NCBI GenBank assembly: GCA_025602905.1
Contig: JAHLKI010000014.1
Span: forward strand, 248,001-312,000
Source: Phlyctochytrium arcticum
Lineage: Eukaryota; Chytridiomycota; Chytridiomycetes; Chytridiales; Chytridiaceae
Direction: 5' to 3'
DNA length: 64,000 nucleotides
The position numbers were made by a program, and so were the translations under genes. This document shows positions 1 to 24,650 of the stretch, piece after piece (within the stretch, counting starts at the first letter, position 1; every line of letters begins with the position of its first letter). A model generated the notes under the pieces. That model worked only from the letters and a program-made list of their open reading frames with translations. It was not told the DNA's origin and did not search any database.

Positions 1-365
1 TATCGATTAATGATTCTTCGTCAGACATTTACGCTCGAAGGATATCAGCCATCTTTGGTTCCCTGAAATACAAAGTAAGAATCCAATGTAGATATTTAAA
101 GAGGTCCTGGAAGTCTATGGCCTGGTGGCCCTCATCAACTCTGCGCTGCACTTGGAATTCCCACGCGTATCTGCTGAGTCAGCTGCTGCGCCATTCGCGC
201 CGTCACGATACCGCGCGATTTTGGATGAGCTGAAATTTGGATAAACAGAACCACATTTCCCACCCGCTTCTTTTGATCTGATCTGATAGAGACAAAGGCA
301 CTTACGAGAACAGGAACCATAACACGCATCCTCGTATCAGCGTCGAGTGACCACGTTTCTTAGGG
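1..365. other. Left edge, unresolved
   Basis: No confident gene. On the minus strand there is an open stretch from 329 down to 135, with an ATG and a good-looking donor (CTC|GTAAGT) near 305. A different frame reads openly from about 190 down to a TAA at 29-31. These could be the last exons of a minus-strand gene whose exon joins I could not make consistent. I do not recognise any of the peptides. Confidence 0.2.
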
Positions 366-3300
366 ATGACTGTCATCTTCAGCATCCGGCTCGGTGATGA
401 TGGATCTCCCGACGATAAAAAGAAGGTACTTTAACGGACATTTGCCACAGCATTCTATCAGGATAACATCGCCCTAACACCATCTACGCGTTAACTAAAA
501 CTCGCGTCATCCATAGTTTGTTCGACTTCCTCCGCCTGTCACTCACAGCCCATACAAATTGAGATTTGTTTTGACTGCCGGAACGTTGGCTTCTCGACGC
601 CCGATCCTTTTCAGTAATTATCCACCTGAAGGGTGCGTTCGACAATATAGATGTAAATACATATACATTACTAACACGCGTTGAATCTGCAGCAAAGAGT
701 TTGAGAGGGAAGTTTACCATCAATACTTGTGAGTACCAACAAACACCTACCCAGCGTGTCATTCTGCTAATCGGGCGAACCTTGTAGCTTTGAAACAAAT
801 GAGTTGGCAGATGCTACAGTCGAGTTTTCCGTGACCAAGTCAGGAGCGTTTGAATACTGTGTTGATTACGATGAGTGGGGGACACAAAAGCGTATCCGCT
901 CTGCAAATGCGGGAGCTATCGTGGTCCAACCTCAACTCTACGTGCCCAATAAGGCCATCTCTGACCCCTCCGAAAAACACGCCATATCCAAAGTCCTTTT
1001 ACCTTTGGATGGCATCACAATTCTGACCGTTATACCCAAGTGGATGCCAACTGTTTCCAAGTGGCCCAACTACTTTGCCGCGTTTGAAGAAGCAGGATAC
1101 AACATGCTTCATTTTGCCCCAATGAACAAGCGCGGAGAATCAAACTCACCTTATAGCATTTTTGATCAGCTCTCTCTCTCCGATGATCTTTTCGGAACAC
1201 CCCTGAATGACGAAGAAAAAGAGAAACAGATGGCTGCCATATTGGAGAGAGGTCGGAATGAGTTTGGCTTGCTCAGTTGCACTGATATTGTGTGGAATCA
1301 TACGGCCAGCAATAGCGCCTGGTTGCAAGATCACCCAGAAGCAGGTAAGTCCAAGCCATTAAAGGTCCTGCGCAGACAAATCCAAACACGGGCCTGCCGC
1401 TAGGTTACAGTGTCCGGAATTCTCCGCATTTACGACCAGCATATGAATTGGAGGAAGCTCTCCTTCAATTTTCTGATGACGTGGTTCAAAAGTACGGCAA
1501 GCCTGCCAAGATTGAGAGCGAGCATGATCTGCAGGGTATTATGGACATTGTGCGCCAGAAGATTGTTCCTCGCGTTGAGCTATGGGAATTTTATGTCGTG
1601 CATGTCGCCAAAGCGGTCGAGCTACTACGTCAGAGTATGGAAAACGAGACCGGGCCACTTCCCACCCCAGAAGAAAGTCGATACGCTAAGCGACAAATTA
1701 CTCAATTATCCTTGAAAGCGCAGGCGGAATTGCTCAAAGCAGATGCCTTGCGTGTTACTCAGTCTGGTCAGAGGTTCGGCAAAACGGTTGATATTGCGAT
1801 TGCTACCGAGTTTGTCGAGAAAATGGCGTTGGAGTACAATGATCAAAATATTGAGTCCAAATTGCGGTGGTTTGAGGCCATCTTAAATGAAATGAACGTG
1901 GATTTTTACCGAGAGCATGACGATGATATCCGTACGCTTTTAGAAAACATTCACACCCGGGCGCGTTATTTGCGAGTGGATCAGCACGGGCCGAGATTGG
2001 GAGCATTATCTCGCGAGTACGTTTGAGTATCAATCCCATGCACAGAAATGCTAAGATTTCTCTCAGGAACCCCCTGGTGGACGTTTATTTCACGCGCTTA
2101 CCCAAAAATCAGACGACACAAGGCCGGCACCCGGAAGATCTAGCACTTGCTAATAATGGATGGATCTGGAATGCAGACCCGTTAGTGAATTTTGCGACCT
2201 CCGGATCAAAAGCATACTTACGCCGTGAAGTCATTGCTTGGAGCGATTGTGTTAAGTTGCGATATGGGGATAAACCTGATGACAATCCTTGGTTATGGGA
2301 ACACCAGATGAAATACACTCAGAAGATGTCAAAGCTCTTCAATGGATTGCGGATTGATAACTGTCATTCAACTCCCATACATGTTGCGTCAACCTTGCTC
2401 GACGCTGGACGCAAAGTCAATCCGAATTTGTACGTTTTTGCTGAACTTTTCTCTGGGTCGGAAGAGAAAGACATCTTGTTTGTCCGAAAGCTTGGAATCA
2501 ATTCATTGATAAGAGAAGCAATGAATGCCTGGGATCCGCAAGAGCTGTCCAGGCTGGTGCATCGCTACGGTGGACAAGGAGTTGGTTAGTAAGAGTGCGC
2601 TATCATGACGCCGCGGTGAGTATCTGAATTCCTGTAGGATCACTTACGTTCCCACCGGAACATTTCCCCTTGGATATGTTGGGCCATGATCTAAACTCGA
2701 GCACGTTCTCGTGCAACAGCTCCGATAACGAGATTATCGTCGATGTGAAAGGGTCGCGGCCCCATGCTCTTCTTATGGACTGGTAAGCGCCCTTCTTCGA
2801 TTTTGCCGAGAGGTGAAATTAATATCCCATGCCAGCACCCATGATAACGAAACACCGCACCAAAAGCGCACTGCTGTTGACACGCTGCCAAATGCCGCTA
2901 TTGTTGCCATGAGTAGCTGCGCAGTTGGGAGTGTCATGGGATACGATGAGATTGTGCCAACACTTCTCAACCTGGTGACTGAATCACGGAAGTACCGAGT
3001 TCCAGACTTTCAGGAAGGAATATCAGCCGGTGAGACTCCAATCCGGTGACCGACACAAGCAATTACTCAACCTATTGTCGTAGCCAAAGCTTTACTGTAT
3101 AATACACATGTGAAAATGGCTAGGGAGGGCTTTTCCGAGATCCATGTCCACCAGGAGCATGACGTGAGTATCCGTGCGGCTGTTGACCTGACAGCTCCTT
3201 TTTAATTCTCCACCAGTTCTTGTCCATCCATCGCGTGCATCCGGTTACACATCAAGGGTACCTACTGATTACGCGCTCGGCCTTCCATCGACACTATGGA

Positions 3301-6300
3301 AGCGACGGTATGTTGTAATTCTTCTTGTAAATAAGGATCGTTCCTGACGTCTCCACAGTCCATTCCCCAATCATTCTCCGCAATCAAACTGTGCATGTTA
3401 CAGCATCGGCCACTTTGAACGTCCAGGCTAACAGTGACGGTCGAAGTACACCCACTCATACCCCACATGATCCTCACGATCCGGGAAACTTGGATGGTCT
3501 TCTACCTGTTCGATCCCCAGCCGCAATGTTTCATTCGTTCGACCATCCGCGCCCTGAGTTTAGACAAACGTATGGGTACATATCAGGTATACCCTCCACG
3601 TTGACGATGTCGACGACAGTCACTACCAAGGTTCATGTTCGGGAAGAGTGTTTCGGGGCCGAGAGTGACATGCAGTCTGTCATTACCATAAACCGAGACG
3701 AGTTTATACCTGGATCAATCGTGTTACTCTTCACAGCCATGCAGACTGAAAATGATGAAGGCGGAAACGTAGAGGCCGATGGATCTATACGTTTCAATGC
3801 ACGTTCTCAGTCCTTCAGTAGCATAAGCAGCCCAAGTGTGTTCACCAATTTGTCCACACTGCTCGGGCTCACTCCGAATGCATGTATTGAGACCATGGTC
3901 CGTCTTGGCTGGGATGTTTTGGCATCCGGACACGTTTGGTACGACAACAGCAAGGAGCGATGGCCGCCAGGTCTATGGGATGCCGTGAAGAATTTGGAAC
4001 TGGAGGACATCAACGTGGCCTTGTATCGTAGTGCAGAAGAGGAGCAAGACCTCATTGGTATGGCTTTGAAACCTCTGACCACCAGTTTGACCTATATTTA
4101 ATCATATCACTCAGGCGAAGGAGTCTATGACGTCCCCGGACACGGACGACTGGCTTACGCAGGCTTGCAGGGTATTGTATCCGCGCTTCAACCAGTCGCC
4201 CGTCATAACGATCTGAGCCATCCCGTATTCGGCAACTTACGCACTGGACCATGGCTACCAGATTACATTGCCACGCGTATTCAGAGGTACGTCCATTCAA
4301 CTTTGATGGGGTTTATCTTATCCAATTGAATTTCAATTCAATTCCGCTTAGGCATCTTTATCTTTTCCCCGCATTGAAGAAGTATTATTCCTGGTTACAC
4401 GCACGTCTGACTTTGGTCAGGAAAATCTCTCCTTCATTTTCCCCAAAGTACTTTACCTTTATCGTTTTCATGGCGTATCATGCATTGCGATTTCGGGCAC
4501 TCTCACTGGATTCTGGTCAAAAAGCAATTCGCCAGTTGGCTGGCAACCGACAGTCATCCCTCGAGTCATTTTCAAATGCATTGTCGATGATGACGTGTCA
4601 GCTGTACGGTCGAGTTGCATCAACGGGGCTAGTACCTGCGGCTTATCCCAATCAACCTATCACTGAATCTGCTCGCGCGTTGAAGAATCAGATTGAAGAT
4701 ACACCTCGAGATGCATCCTTAGCAGCCGGCTTGCCTCATTTTGCCACCCAATACATGCGGTGCTGGGGGAGAGACATTTTTATTTCCCTACCCGGAGCGC
4801 TGATCAAACCTGGGCATTTTGATGCTGCCAAGGCGCACCTGGTAGCTTTTGGCTCAACAATGCGGCACGGCTTGATTCCCAATCTACTCGATCAAGGTAT
4901 CAGTCCCCGATTCAATGCTCGTGATGCAGCATGGTGGTGGTTGTACGGAGTTGCTCAATATTGTCGTGCATCTCCCGAGGGATATGCTTTCCTTGGCGTC
5001 ATTGTGCCGCGCCGATTTATCCCACTCAAGCGTTACCGCCATCCTGACTATTTGGGATGTCCCCAAGAAAACGATGACGGAATGGGTGACACTTATTGCG
5101 CCGCCAACGATATGTCACGAGCCTATGTTCATCAAAATACCATTGCAGAACTTTGTCATGAAATTCTGGAACGTCACGCTCATGGGATTGCCTTTCGCGA
5201 GCATAATGCGGGCAGTGGCCTCGATCATGCCATGCGCTACGAAGGATTCGATGTTCAGGCTTTTGCCAACTTTGAGAATGGCGGCTTGGTGTGCGGAGGC
5301 TCCCGATGGAATTGCGGCACGTGGATGGACAAGATGGGAGATTCGGAGAAGGCGGGTACGAGAGGAACACCCGCGACACCCCGCGATGGCGCCGCGGTTG
5401 AAATTGTCGGTTTAGCCAAAGCCGCGCTTTCATGGGTCGTGAAGGATATCTTGGGCGCCGGCAAAGGACGGGAGTGGTGGAAATGGGAGGATGTGGTTGT
5501 TAAGGGTGAGTAAATCATTTGCTGCCAACTAGGTTTCTGTAGACCTAGACTCACATGCCACAGGTCCAAATGATACCCAGTCAAAGGTCACTTACGCGAT
5601 TTGGAACTCCATGCTCAGCACATCATTTGAAAAGCATTTCTATATCCCTACCGGTAAGTCAATCATGCACACTGTGCGGATATGGCTTATTTATTAGGGA
5701 TAACAGACCCTTCTCAAGACGCTGAATTTGAAATTCCTGACCGTTCTCTTGTACACCGTCGCGGCATGTACAGAGACACAGTTCTTTCATCTCGCGAATT
5801 CATGGGATTCCAACTCCGTCCAAATTTCTGCATTGCCATGGTTGTCGCACCTGACCTTTTCGAGCCAAGTCACGCACGACAAGCACTGGAGTTAGTTCGA
5901 GAAGTTCTTGTGGGGCCACTGGGTACGCTTTCCTGCCTTGTGCAAGACATCAAAGCTCTAACTTGCCATTAGGTATCAAAACCTTGGATCCAAAGGACTG
6001 GGCGTACCGCGGAACTTATGACAATAGCAATGACAGCTCAGATGCGACAGTTGCCCACGGTTTCAATTATCACCAGGGTCCTGTAAGTAAATTGAAGGAT
6101 GTGAATCGTGAGACCATCAACCAACCAATCCGCAGGAATGGGTGTATCCGTTAGGATTCTTTCTGCGAGCATACTTGTACTTCAACACACGAGCAGAAGG
6201 ATACGACCCTTCTAAGGTAAACTTCCCACCCTAATTTTGCGCGTTACAACCACTAAGATTTTGGCAGGTTGAGCACGTCAAGGCCACCATTCAGCGCATC

Positions 6301-6477
6301 CTCCTTAAGCATAAAGAACACATCTTGGATTCGCAGAAATCGCCGTGGGCTGGTCTTCCCGAACTAACAAATGAGAACGGGGCTTTCTGCAGCGGAAGTT
6401 GTCCTACCCAGGCATGGAGCGGAGCGCTCCTGACAGAACTTATGTCGGAGCTCGGGGATGACAGCGTTCTGCAGTAA
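366..6477 (+). CDS. GDB1: Glycogen debranching enzyme (4-alpha-glucanotransferase / amylo-alpha-1,6-glucosidase), 18 exons
   Basis: Bifunctional cytosolic enzyme that removes alpha-1,6 branches during glycogen breakdown. The N-terminal GH13-like half shows the family signature RIDNCHSTP (about 2355), with the nucleophile Asp, followed by [12 protein letters not shown] with the acid/base Glu. The C-terminal GH133 half shows RCWGRD (about 4757), [18 protein letters not shown] and FNYHQGPEW. I read exons at 366-425, 517-632, 693-728, 788-1344, 1404-2016, 2067-2584, 2638-2782, 2836-3029, 3084-3163, 3217-3307, 3359-4057, 4115-4286, 4352-5505, 5564-5653, 5698-5922, 5973-6082, 6136-6216 and 6268-6477. 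Phases agree, and the start ([20 protein letters not shown], then FVRLPPP) matches the family N-terminus. Full length, no broken motif. Introns are about 50-90 nt. Confidence 0.97.
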
Positions 6478-6921
6478 CATTTTGGATAGCATGTGCGCCT
6501 TAATTCGATTGCCATATGACACCAAGACCTTATTATAATTATAAATTTGTTGATTTAGATTGAATGGCGCGTGTGAGGAGGCTCTGCCCAAAAAAAGAAA
6601 GCCCAAGAAAACATTCGACATCTGCGTAGTTGGGAAGCTGGAGACGCCCGCTACTGACCCGCAAAAGCGCGGTACGAAGAGTGAGTGAGGTGATGAAGAC
6701 GACAGACACCTATGTGCAAATAGTATCAGAAATAAAGCGTTAGCAGTTGGAGACGATTGTTTGGTTGCATATCGCTTGTAGGTATGCCGCAGTTTCACCG
6801 GTAAAGGTGATCTATGCATGTCAATGGGGCTCCTGCGAGAAATAGCGGCCGGATGTCACGCCGTACGTCGCCCGGGGGGTGCCAAAAGTGGGGGGAAAGG
6901 TGATATCGGGTCATTCAGCGA
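6478..6921. other. Gene-free stretch between convergent GDB1 and SGF11
   Basis: Nothing supportable beyond the 3' ends of the two flanking genes. A plus-strand Lys/Arg-rich open frame of about 42 codons (6565-6690) has no start codon and no partner exon. Confidence 0.4.
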
Positions 6922-8441
6922 CTAATCGTCATAGTCATTATCATCGCTGCCGACGGCATCTGCGTCCCCATCAATATCCACTACGAAAGGCGCGGTCAGA
7001 ACTCTCATCGTTTTCGGACTGATACTAGTAGTTACCTATGAGATCCTCCAGTAGTGGAACGGTCTTATCTGAAAACATTCGAAACCCCTTATTTCCTATA
7101 CGTGAAGGAGAAGCATCCAGTGGCCTATGTGATTGGATGTGATTGTCCAATATCGGTGTAGGCGACTTCTCCAGTATATTGGGGTGTGATGGAGGTTTGG
7201 GTGACTTGAATTGGAGTTAAGGGGACCTGCATTCACGATAAGCCACGTAAAACTTACAGGTGATGGACGGGAAGGGTCGGAAGCGGTAGCTTTATAGAAA
7301 AATGAGGCATTTTCTTTAAGAAGCGCATTTGGGGAATATTTGAAAAGATGTTGCAACCTACCCATCCGCAATTTTTTGGTCATAGATTTGCGAAGTGGCG
7401 ATTCCTTCCTTTTCAGGCCTCGCCGGTCGTTTGGTGATGAGCTTCCGTGACCATTGCCTGTGACCGATTCTGTGTCCGAGTCTGCTCCCATCGGAGACGG
7501 TGAAGCTTGCTCTAAACCGGGACTTCCATTGCAAGAAATCAGCTCTCTTTTCAGATGAACAAGGAGCGGGCAGACTTACCGCCTTGACGACGAGCGTGAG
7601 TTATTTCGCCCCCCAAAGCCCAGGCACTTCTCAAGATGCGGGGCGTACCGCTGTGCAGGATACCAGCTATTGCATTTATAACATTGGAATTTGTCGGTCA
7701 CTGCGTTCTTATCTCCAAGAGGAAGACCAAAAATGTCAAGGTTGGAAGCAGGAGATGCTGACATCGGACTAACAGTTAGCATTGGAGGGTGTTAGTATCA
7801 GCTTTCGCACGTACAATGCGCGAGACATCTGAACAGTAGGGAACAGCCGGTCAATGACGGTTACGGACGTTTGCCAATTCATACATACTTTGTGTGACAC
7901 GCTTGGCAAAAACTCTTCTTCCTGACCTCCTCCTTGTGTAGCTCGAATCCCATTTCTTGCATCACCTCTGCCAGTACATCATCAAATACTAGCCGCACCT
8001 GTAGGTCCTTGGCATTTGAAACCGATTCATGACAAAGATACCTTTGGCGCGTACCTGTGCTGTCCGTTCTTCATCAGGCAATGTCGTAAACAGCTTCGGC
8101 GCAATACTTTCAGTTGATCGAGTGTCGACATCTGATGCTTTCGAACTATAAAGGAGAATTTAGGAAAATTAGCAACGGTTGATGAAAATGTCACTTTGAT
8201 GACAAACTTGGGTCCAAAAACGTTCGGCAAAGACATCAATCATTCAAATATCCTCACCCCGCCGGCTTAACATAATTCAAGCAAAGCACTTGATGATAAA
8301 CTAGAGGAAGCCTTCTATTACGCACCTTGTAATACTCTCTATACTTTCACGTCTGACAGGTTCCTTTCCACCTTTACTCGACATGGTGTTCCGGCTCGCA
8401 CGATCCAACCCATTTTCCCAATCGTCCGCAGACGCCGCCAT
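6922..8441 (-). CDS. SGF11: SAGA-associated factor 11 (Sgf11/ATXN7L3 family), deubiquitinase-module subunit
   Basis: Sgf11 anchors and activates the H2B deubiquitinase Ubp8 within SAGA. The decisive piece is the zinc finger at about 7580-7690: CYKCNSWYPAQRYAPHLEKC followed by GFGGRNNSRSSSRR, the family pattern Cx2C...HxxxC plus the Arg-rich tail. An upstream exon (about 7890-8000) encodes FDDVLAEVMQEMGFELHKEE, the N-terminal helix. The start exon reads MAASADDWENGLDRASRN from 8441. The protein continues past the finger into a basic, Ser-rich region (7263-7490) absent from short yeast Sgf11. The last exon is uncertain: a natural joining stops at 7125-7127, while an acidic tail (VVDIDGDADAVGSDDNDYDD) ends at 6922. 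The coordinates here span the longer option. Confidence 0.85.
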
Positions 8442-19740: not shown

Positions 19741-20190
19741 TTACTCCTTGCCGCTCCCAGCAATCGGAACTTCGCCTCCAGTATCTGCATCGCATTAGTG
19801 TAAGGACTATCTCAGAGGGTAGCGTCTGATGTACATACCTTCAAAGAGAGCTCCAGCGTGCCCAGCATCAGTCGAGCGCATCTCGGCGTCGCTAAGGGCC
19901 TCCAAGAACGGTTCCTTCTCGTCCAGACTCGCAGGCACATCCTCGAACCAGTCTCCTACGTGTCCTTCAGTAGCTTGAGCGGCATATTCTCTCTCCATGA
20001 ACTTTTCCTTCTCGTGCTGCGCTTGTTGGCCGGCACTCATACTCTTGTCGGGGTGCACATTGGGACCCGGTCCAGCGGTGGCCCACGAATTCCAGCCGGT
20101 CTGGCGCGAGTTCTGAGATAGTCCTCGAACGGTGGTTGTTAAGTACGCAGGCCGCAAGACCTGGACTTGCTTGAGATGTTTGGCAAACAT
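19741..20190 (-). CDS. Small protein with mitochondrial-type presequence, function unknown
   Basis: Two exons: the start exon from 20190 (MFAKHLKQVQVLRPAYLTTT) and a short last exon encoding DTGGEVPIAGSGKE, ending with TAA at 19741-19743. The intron lies at roughly 19785-19838. The N-terminus is Lys/Arg/Ser/Thr-rich with no acidic residue for about 40 residues, as in mitochondrial targeting peptides. The rest is acidic and hydrophilic (EKEKFMEREYAAQATEGHVGD, GALFEDTGGEVP). I do not recognise the family. It is transcribed away from SRP54, and the transposon begins 247 bp upstream of its ATG. Confidence 0.65.
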
Positions 20191-20428
20191 TGCGTGTATG
20201 AATCAACAGATGAAGTTTTTTCTTGGTACAAAAGGATGACCTTGACTTTATGGGCAGTCCGAAGCAGCAAATACTTTTAACCCTGTTGTGCGTATGGCTT
20301 GCCCAAGGTCAAATGTCACATTGGCAGACCGTACAGACCCCATTTTACTCCGATAGACCCCAAGGAAACCCTTCAGACCAAAGCCCCGCAGCGCGCGTCG
20401 CGTCAAGCCTGGGAAACCCGGGGGGGAA

Positions 20429-20436
20429 ACCAAAGC
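20429..20436. repeat. Left target-site duplication, ACCAAAGC
   Basis: Eight bases directly abutting the left inverted repeat, repeated exactly at 24361-24368. A C follows on both sides, so a 9-bp reading is possible if one base is taken from the TIR. Confidence 0.92.
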
Positions 20437-20461
20437 CCCAGCGCACGGGTTCCATTTTAGG
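20437..20461 (+). repeat. Left terminal inverted repeat
   Basis: Twenty-five bases identical to the reverse complement of 24336-24360. Beyond the perfect part the next eight bases (ACAAATCA against CTAAATGA) are still partly alike, so the original TIR may have been about 33 bp. Confidence 0.95.
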
Positions 20462-20833
20462 ACAAATCAGAGTCGCAGCCACGCTGATGTAATCAGAGCT
20501 CCGGCGTGTTCGTGAAATACGTGTTGGTAAATCTACCTTGACCCTGTTTCATTGCAGACTGTCAATAAAGTTGCGCTTTTACGTCACGAACCTCGAGATG
20601 TAATAATTCACTTTGGATTGGCTGACGTTTTGAGCCGTTTTGTGTAGCAATGATAACAGTTATGTGCGAATTTCAGATGGCGATTTCTCTTTTAACTCCC
20701 CCCCCTTCCAGGTCCCCCCGTTTCGGTCCCTCGCATTGGACGAGTACGGAGACGCTTAGATACCCTCGGCACACATATTATCTCAGCCTGTCTTCAATAT
20801 TGGAGCGTTTTATCCGGGTCCACTCGAGTTATC

Positions 20834-23800
20834 ATGGCTTCTAGTCCCCCCAATAATCGGCGGCAGGATGGCCGATTCATCGCACCATTCAACGATACAG
20901 AACCGAAAGGAGTCAAGCCTGTCTGCATCATTTGCAAGACCAAGTCCAGTACCCGCTACTGCCATCGAGATCTCGGTCTTCTTGCCCATCTTCGAGCGAA
21001 CAACGTCCCATTTCATTTCAGCACGGATGCCGGCCACAAGAATGCCACGTTTTGCAAAAAATGCTGGAACCAACTTGACCGCAAGTACCCACATCCCTTG
21101 TTTCGAGTAAATCAGAAGGAAAACGATGCCCAGGCAGTCGCAACTAGTACATCGACAACCATCACACACGTCACGCCCATGCCGGTACCGCCAATATCCG
21201 TGATTGCACAACCTGTCATGCCTACACCTGCAACGTTTGAACCCGTTGAGCCTATTTTCGGGGTGCATACACCCGTCACGCCCACGTTTGGCTCGCCCAC
21301 ATTCGGCTCGCCCACGATCGCCTCACCTACGCCTACGCGCACAATCAACTTTGGCACTATCACTGTCGACTTGGAGGACAACAGGAACGATTTTGTTGAG
21401 CCGGTCATGTCCGATACCTTGAAGTTTAGGAACGGCGTTCTTGACCTGCTTGACAAGGAGTGTGATCTCAAGATGCCTTTTACATCGGATTTGGACGCGT
21501 TTATTGAGCATTTAGATAGTTGCGACAATTTGGCGACGAAGACAGCGGTCGACTTGGGGCTCTCAGGTACCTAATGCTTGACCACTCATACCAGTGAAAC
21601 TGAAACATTTCTACCAGCTGTTAGCTGGAAGCAAACAGAGTCAGAGAGAAGGAGAAGAATCATAGCTTCCATTACTGTACAGAAGGCCGCATTCCTTCAT
21701 CCCCACATCAATTTCATGAAGGATGTGTTGATATCAACCACATTAGGATTATCCGAGAGCAGTAGAAAGGTGCTCGCGTCTTTTAATTTGAGTTTCAGTC
21801 CGGACGTAGCGAAGCAGAAAATGAAGGAAGCGAACGCGAGGGCGTACAAGGAGCTGACCGAACAGATGAGCGGGGGTACAGTTGTTCCAGTTGTCAAGAT
21901 GGACGACTTCAACAGAGTTTCAGTTCATGGAACACCTGGTTCGGCGAACTCAGGAAAGTTCAGCACCGTGCAAACTCAAGCTAACTTGGCTGTGAAGTTT
22001 TTTCCGAAGGGGCAATCGTCTTATGATGAGGAGAATGGACACGTACATCGAGCTTTACCTCTACCACTCTTGGAAAAGCCGTATATAGACTTCAGTGACA
22101 TGGGATCTGACAAGGACAAGAAGGCCTTCGTCAACGCGCCTCTCCTAGACAAAGCAATAACTGACATCGTTGAGAAGGAAACCTACGGCGAAAAAATTAT
22201 CAACACAAACCAAGCGAATGCTTTTCGCAGGCCGTATCAATTCGACATGTCAACCAGTGCCGCTGAATTAAAACAGTTTCATGTTTTCGATGCGATGCCG
22301 AACAGAATGAAGACTGCGGAAGATTTACGATCTCTAATGGTTTCCGTCAAGAAGTTTATTGAACACTACAAAGACGGAGCGATTTTCATTACTGGCGACT
22401 TTTATGTTTGGCGGAACGTCATGAAGATACTATGGGCGAAAACGCGGGGCCGTCTATCTCCAGACCATGCATATCTCCGAATCGTTCTTTGCCCATGGCC
22501 TGATGGTATGCACATCGCACTGAATGCCCAGCAAGGTAAATCCTTATTATCATCGTCTCAAGGCTACATACTTAATGCATCACAGCGTTATTGCAATGGA
22601 ACTTCAATGTGTTCATGCCTATTTGGAGCTCCGCATTCCCGGATTTTGCCGTTCAACTAGTAAAGCTGCGACCTGTAAGGCGCATGATGTTGCTAACAAT
22701 GATGTTCTTAGCTTGGAAACAGTGCCGTGTCCAAGTGATGGATTGGGCGAAACAGCAGAAAGATCTCCCCGAATTCCAGCGTGTCATAGTGGACTCCCTC
22801 ATCCGGCTGTTCGATGAAGAGTTGCCGCTCGTACTGGATGCTGCAACGGCCATGGCCAGCGGCAACATTGTGCTGTATAAGGAGGTACTGCATAGGTTGT
22901 TGCCACTCTTCATACGATATCGCAAAAGGAACTATGTCACCATCGTTCTCCACATTCTCTCTGCAATCCAGGAGATTGAGATGGGGGGTGATGATAACAT
23001 CACTGCTGCGCTATACAGCAACCTGCCACTAGCAAGTTCTGAGGATCTGGAGGTTTTCCACTCCCTCCTCCGTGCTTGCATCCGGCCATTCGACTCGCAC
23101 GGCCGTGCCGTCTTAAACACACTTTACCTCTCTGCAAACAAAAATTTAAGTTCAAGGTCATTTCTGGCGCAAGTCGCAAAACAAAAAGCTGACGACAGGA
23201 AAAAGCGGACACCATGGACAAAGTTCGCGGGAAAGTTCACACTTCAACCACGACAGCCCGTAGAGACCAAACGTACACAGTACTTTAACTCACATCTCGA
23301 AATCATGGTCGCTACTCTTAAGGACATGTTCCGCAAACTCATTGCCAATTCGCCCAACATCACCATCAAGGGAGAGATGATGTTCTCTCATTCTGCCACC
23401 GCTAGAAAAGTTCGCGGGTATCAGGTCCGCTATATAGTGGCCCCATCCCAGCCATCAACCGCTACAGCAACGGAACCCGCGAAGAAGAAGCGAAAGAAGA
23501 ACACCAAAATTTCGAAATTCATCAACTGTAATATCCCGCCTGAAGTAATCGTGACTGTGTCCGAACGGTTATTACCACTTACCCTCTGGGGAGATAAGAA
23601 GGTCGTTCCTCTGAACGTTCACACGGATATTAGTGACTTTGCTGCAGTTGAGAGAGTGCGAACCCCGCTTCAAGACATAACCAATCAAGGTGATGCCGCA
23701 ACTGACAATAAGAAGTTCTTCAATAAGTTTTCCACATTCGAAAAACCCCCGATGAGGCCTGGTTCAATCATTTGTCAATGCCCTATTTTGAGTCAAGATA

Positions 23801-23937
23801 TCTGCATTCACCTCAAACAGTTAATTGCTGGGAATGAATTTATCTGGTGGATACACAACATGGCGAAGCCCCTCTCGGATGAAGACTTTGTAAGAGACGA
23901 AGATGAGGATGAGGAGATCACTGAGGAGCTGTGGTAA
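20834..23937 (+). CDS. Putative transposase, 1000 aa, family not recognised
   Basis: Exons 20834-21566, 21618-22535 and 22586-23937 join in phase (introns 51 and 50 nt). Near the N-terminus is a Cys/His cluster that looks zinc-binding: C31-x2-C34, C43-H44, H52, and C74-x2-C77 in FCKKCWNQL. A Thr/Pro-rich linker follows, with short near-repeats TFGSP / TFGSP / TIASP (about 21280-21330). The middle contains ITGDFYVWRNVMKILW and IVLCPWPDGMHIALNA, then a helical segment with LLPLFIRYRKRNYVTIVLHI. The layout resembles large uncharacterised eukaryotic proteins with a central Asp-bearing strand (for example DUF6589-like), which may be transposase-derived; this is recollection, not a search. A basic NLS-like AKKKRKK and an acidic C-terminus (DEDEDEEITEEL) follow. 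A GT at 23934 may add an alternative last exon. Confidence 0.8.
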
Positions 23938-24335
23938 GTAACTCACTGTGACCTACCGCATCTTGATCGTGCTGACACAAACGCGGACATAGATATGCAT
24001 CAATCGCCGGAATGACCGCACCAAATGCCCACAGCTTGTGTCAGTTCCTAGAGACATGTCTGAAATTTCATTCCTGCAATTTTTAACTGAATCTATCCAG
24101 GTCCAAGTCTCCAATCCTCCAACAAGCCCATCGCGGTTATACTCTCTTCTCAAAATTTTCGTAGAATAGACTAGTTTTATTACCAAAGCGTGAATTTTTT
24201 TTTGGAAACCTCAAATTTGACTTCATTGAAAGGGAATCATTCATATCAGTATGCCTATCTTTAAGGTTTTAATAGACGTTCTTCTGCTCAGAAAGTGTTC
24301 AGTCCACAGCTGCGCACAAGTTTGAGATCATTTAG

Positions 24336-24360
24336 CCTAAAATGGAACCCGTGCGCTGGG
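24336..24360 (-). repeat. Right terminal inverted repeat
   Basis: Perfect 25-base inverted copy of 20437-20461, ending in GTGCGCTGGG at the insertion boundary. Confidence 0.95.
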
Positions 24361-24368
24361 ACCAAAGC
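24361..24368. repeat. Right target-site duplication, ACCAAAGC
   Basis: Exact direct copy of 20429-20436, immediately outside the right inverted repeat. Confidence 0.92.
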
Positions 24369-24650
24369 CGTAATAAGTCATGTGACCCACTTTCCAAGAA
24401 TGGATAAATGGAAACGGCAGTTGCAATCTTGAAAGCGTCGACACAGATTCTGCGAATTTCGGCTTTCATTGGTTATATTCGACTGTTGTTTTTGGGTCAC
24501 TCTTAGCCTCTTAGCTGCGTGCATAGCATATTAGTCTTCAGCAAATTATCAAAAGTCTCAGCAACAACAGCGGGTCAGCCCTCATCTTGAACCAACTCGG
24601 GATAGAAGGCCCACCTTACCCGAATCGACAGAGGGAGCGGACAAGTCAAC

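Follow-up and report, generated by a model that had tools for sequence, protein, structure and literature searches.

The retrotransposons Tf1 and Ty3 are steered by host DNA-binding proteins. We know of no DNA transposon whose insertions lie at a near-fixed distance from a site of the transcription-factor type. Dada DNA transposons target multicopy small RNA genes (PMC3706591). Tf1, Ty3 and the engineered "calling card" transposons (PMC9428926 for the last) all insert next to a site recognised by a DNA-binding protein. Here we describe an element of the chytrid Phlyctochytrium arcticum. It occupies positions 20437-24360 (3924 bp) of the window, the whole stretch of 64,000 nucleotides analysed (contig JAHLKI010000014.1, positions 248,001 to 312,000); plain coordinates refer to this stretch, and those of the form G000:Cn to contigs of the P. 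arcticum assembly. The palindrome CACGTG is an E-box, the classical site of basic helix-loop-helix (bHLH) proteins. Half of the examined insertions of the element and its close relatives lie about 18 bp from this word, a pattern suggestive of steering towards such gene-control sites. Like Dada, it is a DNA transposon with its own target preference, whereas the preference here is for a short E-box at a fixed distance. With Tf1, Ty3 and the calling card transposons it has in common that insertion is beside such a site; it differs in being a natural DNA transposon, in the single E-box involved and in a spacing fixed to about one base. No natural DNA transposon spaced from CACGTG was found in the open-access literature, as covered by titles and the beginnings of abstracts, with subscription journals and Repbase outside that coverage.

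An earlier note on this DNA had proposed a complete, apparently recent transposon with perfect 25-bp terminal inverted repeats (TIRs) between identical 8-bp flanks. These ends were confirmed, and the TIRs reach 31 nt with 94% complementarity and no mismatch in the outer 25 nt. A DNA search of the host assembly (31.5 Mb in 91 contigs) gave 12 insertions of the family, with all aligned pieces more than 99% identical. The proposal of a complete DNA transposon is supported. The note had named copies with the same ends and different 8-bp duplications as a check, and these exist: eight of the ten two-ended insertions have perfect duplications, differing from copy to copy. Because the same ends recur in the genome with differing duplications, the structure is not due to chance. 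The pattern CCCAGCGCACGGGT has 32 mismatch-free occurrences, all of which are ends of this family or of a second one. Eight copies are full (L001-L008; 99.1-100% identity). Five of the seven other than the window copy (L002-L005 and L007) differ from it by only 3-4 substitutions each in 3.9 kb, and part of the spread is therefore recent, as proposed; L006 has 15 substitutions and L008 has 14. The remaining insertions are L009, which is interrupted by another transposon, a C15 copy in pieces, the truncated L010 (C6) and a 327-bp end, L013 (C2). No earlier description of the element was found in Pfam or open-access papers (Repbase was not searched). The note was right about a transposon in a flagellated fungus; it overlooked the introns, the related families and the E-box at the target sites.

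The second family is 67-74% identical to the window family in aligned parts. Four of its five two-ended insertions have perfect 8-bp duplications, and the fifth (L018) matches at seven of eight bases. A third family, with the TIR CCCAGCACACAACTGCC, has perfect duplications at both of the two insertions counted. Over the three families together, perfect duplications flank 14 of 17 insertions with both ends.

We examined the flanks of 20 insertions (12 of the window family, 6 of the second and 2 of the third), counting the single-ended L010, L013 and L019 with one flank each. CACGTG was first noticed in some of these flanks, and the count then covered them together with a small number of additional insertions. 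It stands 17-19 bp outside one element end in ten of the 20 (5/12, 4/6 and 1/2 by family), on the left in seven and on the right in three, and never on both sides. The order at these sites is CACGTG, 9-11 bp, the 8-bp duplication and the element, and no other common sequence was seen among them by eye. Within 150 bp of the ends there is only one further exact CACGTG, at 55 bp. For a distance profile to 300 bp, L003 and L005 were re-paired by their duplications; at no distance other than 17-19 bp does more than one insertion have the exact word. Mean best similarity to CACGTG is 4.65 of 6 at 18 bp, compared with 2.79 (standard deviation 0.17) elsewhere. Distances of 16 and 20 bp, neither of which has an exact CACGTG, were excluded from this background. 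In the ten insertions without the exact word, the similarity at 18 bp is matched or exceeded at only 6 of 298 distances. The window copy is one of them; its CATGTG at 18 bp is CACGTG with a C-to-T change at the CpG.

The genome was then scanned for CACGTG followed, after a gap of 3-33, by CCCAGCRCAC. There are 16 occurrences, with gaps of 17-19 in 15 and of 25 in one, and the reversed control has two. If all 31 gaps were equally likely, the probability of 15 in 16 would be 9e-15. Since ten of these 16 had already been counted in the flank survey, only the six further matches are independent evidence. These six are ends of third-family elements, five of them at 17-19 bp (p 5e-5). Seven two-ended elements of 1430-1461 bp, assigned to the third family by their ends alone, are too short for the gene and hence non-autonomous; the E-box is at 17-19 bp in four and at 25 bp in one. 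A further third-family element, at C13:774542, lies 19 bp from an E-box when L015 and one duplication copy are left out, and the same E-box is 17 bp from L015 (G000:C13:770469-775996). One E-box thus seems to have been hit twice, by insertions of different families. Over 959 bp, the C13:774542 element shares about 74% identity with the 5' part of L024.

Two results weigh against positioning by the E-box. Nine of the 20 insertions do not have even a one-mismatch CACGTG at 17-19 bp, and a distantly related clade does not follow the rule. This large clade of the P. arcticum genome, which we call P0009 (for example C9:791266), has long frames of about 740-930 aa, and 21 copies are 98-100% identical over a 741-bp 5' stretch. 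Its elements start with CTCAGCGCAACCC, as judged from two copies. That end occurs 20 times in the genome, in 18 cases on the 5' side of copies that are nearly identical. In a scan of this 5' side alone, at 3-33 bp outward from the end, CACGTG is absent from all 20. Compared with 7/20 for the 5' side of the E-box families, the difference from 0/20 gives a Fisher p of 0.008. A variant P0009-type end on C34, outside the 20, has CACGTG at 16 bp.

The note had described one uninterrupted gene. This proved wrong, as two short introns split the frame into three exons. With the splice sites proposed here, the exons join into an open frame of 1000 aa; a possible third intron at the gene end (23934-23992) would make the protein 999 aa, one residue shorter. 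Six of the eight full copies keep this frame intact as far as its normal stop. In L006 codon 885 is a stop, and indels disrupt the frame of L008. L009, which was not among the copies scored, has a split frame in a six-frame search. The residues D340, D505 and E706 are conserved among aligned relatives and are the putative catalytic triad, E706 being our choice for the third position.

Naming the family by sequence alone failed. The window protein has no Pfam domain at E<=10, including hAT, P-type transposase, THAP, KDZ and DUF6589, and PDB sequence searches gave only weak, unrelated matches. Among 20 relatives, no hAT, P-type/THAP or KDZ domain matched at E<=1, and no relative searched had a Pfam domain above cut-off. 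DUF6589 (PF20231) comes closest: at E<=1, a partial match to its profile is seen in seven of the 20 relatives aligned, the lowest E being 5e-5. The best relative reaches 22.6 bits against a curated cut-off of 27 bits, and a search of the P. arcticum genome gave no place above it (best 23.7 bits). The word DUF6589 was not found in the open-access literature. A first structure model from nine sequences (predicted local distance difference test score 47) gave no usable match, with Hermes ranked first at E 0.63. A model from 20 sequences was better and predicts an RNase-H-like DDE (aspartate-aspartate-glutamate) core with a helical insertion; Hermes, a hAT transposase, is nearest, and the P element and RAG1 also match. 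The TIRs, the copy-specific duplications and this predicted core with three acidic residues are features of DDE transposons with TIRs. Compared with hAT elements such as Hermes, the element shares the 8-bp duplication, but lacks a Pfam hAT domain and detectable sequence similarity and has the E-box beside its target. No subterminal repeats like those of hAT elements stood out; the only repeated words were 9-mers occurring twice, counted without a shuffle control. The P element superfamily, also among the matches to the predicted fold, differs in that no P-type/THAP domain is found here. KDZ (Kyakuja-Dileera-Zisupton) transposons are known from fungi, and Zisupton leaves 8-bp duplications (PMC12730594). 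Occurrence in fungi and the duplication are thus shared, whereas no KDZ Pfam domain is found here; the absence of KDZ transposase from the structure-match listings excludes nothing.

Our best reading is that the element represents a new lineage, hAT/P-like, in which the E-box positions insertion, perhaps via a bound host bHLH protein. At the level of sequence, past mobility, an 8-bp stagger and a fixed CACGTG spacing in about half of the insertions are established; catalysis and cut-and-paste transposition by a DDE transposase would fit the predicted core. In this reading the element encodes a single protein of about 1000 aa, a transposase in which an N-terminal zinc-finger-like stretch accompanies an RNase-H-like DDE core and a long helical insertion. 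It would bring the two 31-bp TIRs together, cut the element out and insert it at a target site opened with an 8-bp stagger. Targets would not be picked at random: a CACGTG on one side, 9-11 bp from the duplication, would set the strand-transfer complex at a distance of about one helical turn. The E-box would be usable on either side because the transpososome would be two-fold symmetric. Taken as a whole, an autonomous cut-and-paste hAT/P-like transposon with a DDE transposase and a target positioned by the E-box is probably the right explanation. Most speculative is the view that the complex is held, and the target so kept about one helical turn away, by an E-box-bound host bHLH protein rather than by a transposase domain reading CACGTG. 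The elements could then be a natural "calling-card" DNA transposon lineage, so far seen in one chytrid only, in which the complex is tethered by a host bHLH factor on CACGTG, inserts about one helical turn away and with each insertion records a transcription-factor binding event; we offer this tentatively, as quite possible. If a host factor does hold the transposase, the system would be a natural model for the steering of mobile DNA to regulatory sites. The element is also of use as a young transposon of an early-branching fungus, present in many copies of which some seem to be intact.

The transposase might instead read CACGTG itself, through the N-terminal zinc-finger-like stretch or another domain, and make a host protein unnecessary. 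A spacing fixed from the strand-transfer point fits a domain of the same complex, and members of the E-box clade carry a CxxC...CxxC stretch; a similar stretch is also found in P0010 of the P0009 clade, whose 5' ends lack the E-box, and CACGTG is the classical bHLH site. We regard direct reading as somewhat unlikely. If the elements simply had a preference for promoters or open chromatin, regions rich in CACGTG, no direct coupling would be needed. The window copy does lie in the shared upstream region of a small minus-strand open frame (19807-20190, no Pfam match) and a plus-strand SRP54 gene, and L004 likewise lies between divergent frames. However, such a preference gives no spacing fixed to 17-19 bp, and there are only 2 CACGTG in 37 kb of flank beyond 40 bp. 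Nor is a general promoter preference supported by the other insertions, as L006 is beside a DDE_1 frame and L025 is inside a frame matching DEAD helicase; because of L025, promoters are not the sole targets. We consider this explanation very improbable. Even less credible is that CACGTG belongs to a repeat or larger mobile unit that houses the elements. Besides the shared word itself nothing supports it, the bases around the E-box differ among the ten sites, the target duplication stands between E-box and element, and the word is one-sided at all ten. By descent the element might still be an ordinary, if diverged, hAT member, given its 8-bp duplications and a predicted fold nearest to Hermes. 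That is possible, if on the doubtful side, and is compatible with the E-box rule.

Coordinates of the features of the element in the window
Feature	Position	Strand	Basis
Left 8-bp target duplication, ACCAAAGC	20429..20436	none	sequence
Left (5') TIR, 31 nt, outer 25 nt perfect, start CCCAGCGCACGGGTTCCATTTTAGG	20437..20467	+	sequence
Transposase exon 1, codes for N-terminal CxxC...CxxC zinc-finger-like stretch	20834..21566	+	translation; stretch also in relatives
Intron 1, GT...AG, 51 bp, in-frame TAA inside	21567..21617	+	proposed splice sites
Transposase exon 2, with candidate catalytic residues D340 (21902-21904) and D505 (22397-22399)	21618..22535	+	putative catalytic role
Intron 2, GT...AG, 50 bp	22536..22585	+	proposed splice sites
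Transposase exon 3, codes for helical insertion, SSEDLEVFHS motif (candidate catalytic residue E706, 23050-23052) and C-terminal CxC...CxH stretch; includes stop codon	22586..23937	+	putative catalytic role
Right (3') TIR, 31 nt	24330..24360	-	sequence
Right target duplication, ACCAAAGC	24361..24368	none	sequence
CATGTG, 18 bp outside right element end, at E-box place of related insertions	24379..24384	none	sequence

At 20377-20398, 52 bp before the left duplication, the sequence ACCAAAGCCCCGCAGCGCGCGT is 77% like the duplication plus the TIR start. This resemblance may be chance or an old footprint.

Named relatives from protein searches are hypothetical proteins of P. arcticum and one from Nowakowskiella sp. 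All three protein searches scored only candidates sharing most words, and this host range is therefore a lower bound. A second search with alignment gave only three proteins, all already known. The P0005 family, 43% identical, is at 13 places in the P. arcticum genome, with copies 92-99% identical to the query. Among viral contigs, 87 stretches fit a short pattern, with no confirmed relative among them. A plasmid search using window positions 1-8000 gave no match, and no open-access paper naming P. arcticum had transposons in its title (titles only).

L003 and L005 lie on one contig in opposite orientation (the pair spans G000:C5:1055702-1082063), and their duplications TATCACAC and TGTCCAGA are exchanged. 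Recombination between inverted copies, inverting the intervening 18.5 kb, would leave such duplications; an assembly error may also explain them. L009 (G000:C36) has a 2747-bp insertion at element positions 63-71. It is flanked by the 9-bp duplication CTCCGGCGT, has the inverted ends GCCGTGACTAGGAATCGTACAG and contains long frames on the minus strand whose motifs look like those of a MULE transposase. In C15 one element copy is split by a 26.8-kb insertion (G000:C15:210291-237079, junctions in L011 and L012). This insertion has a 5-bp duplication GACAT, inverted repeats perfect over at least 680 bp and a 68-bp palindrome at each tip, and by its size may be Polinton- or virus-like. The same copy also has a 218-bp insertion with a 9-bp duplication (G000:C15:208582-208799, in L011).
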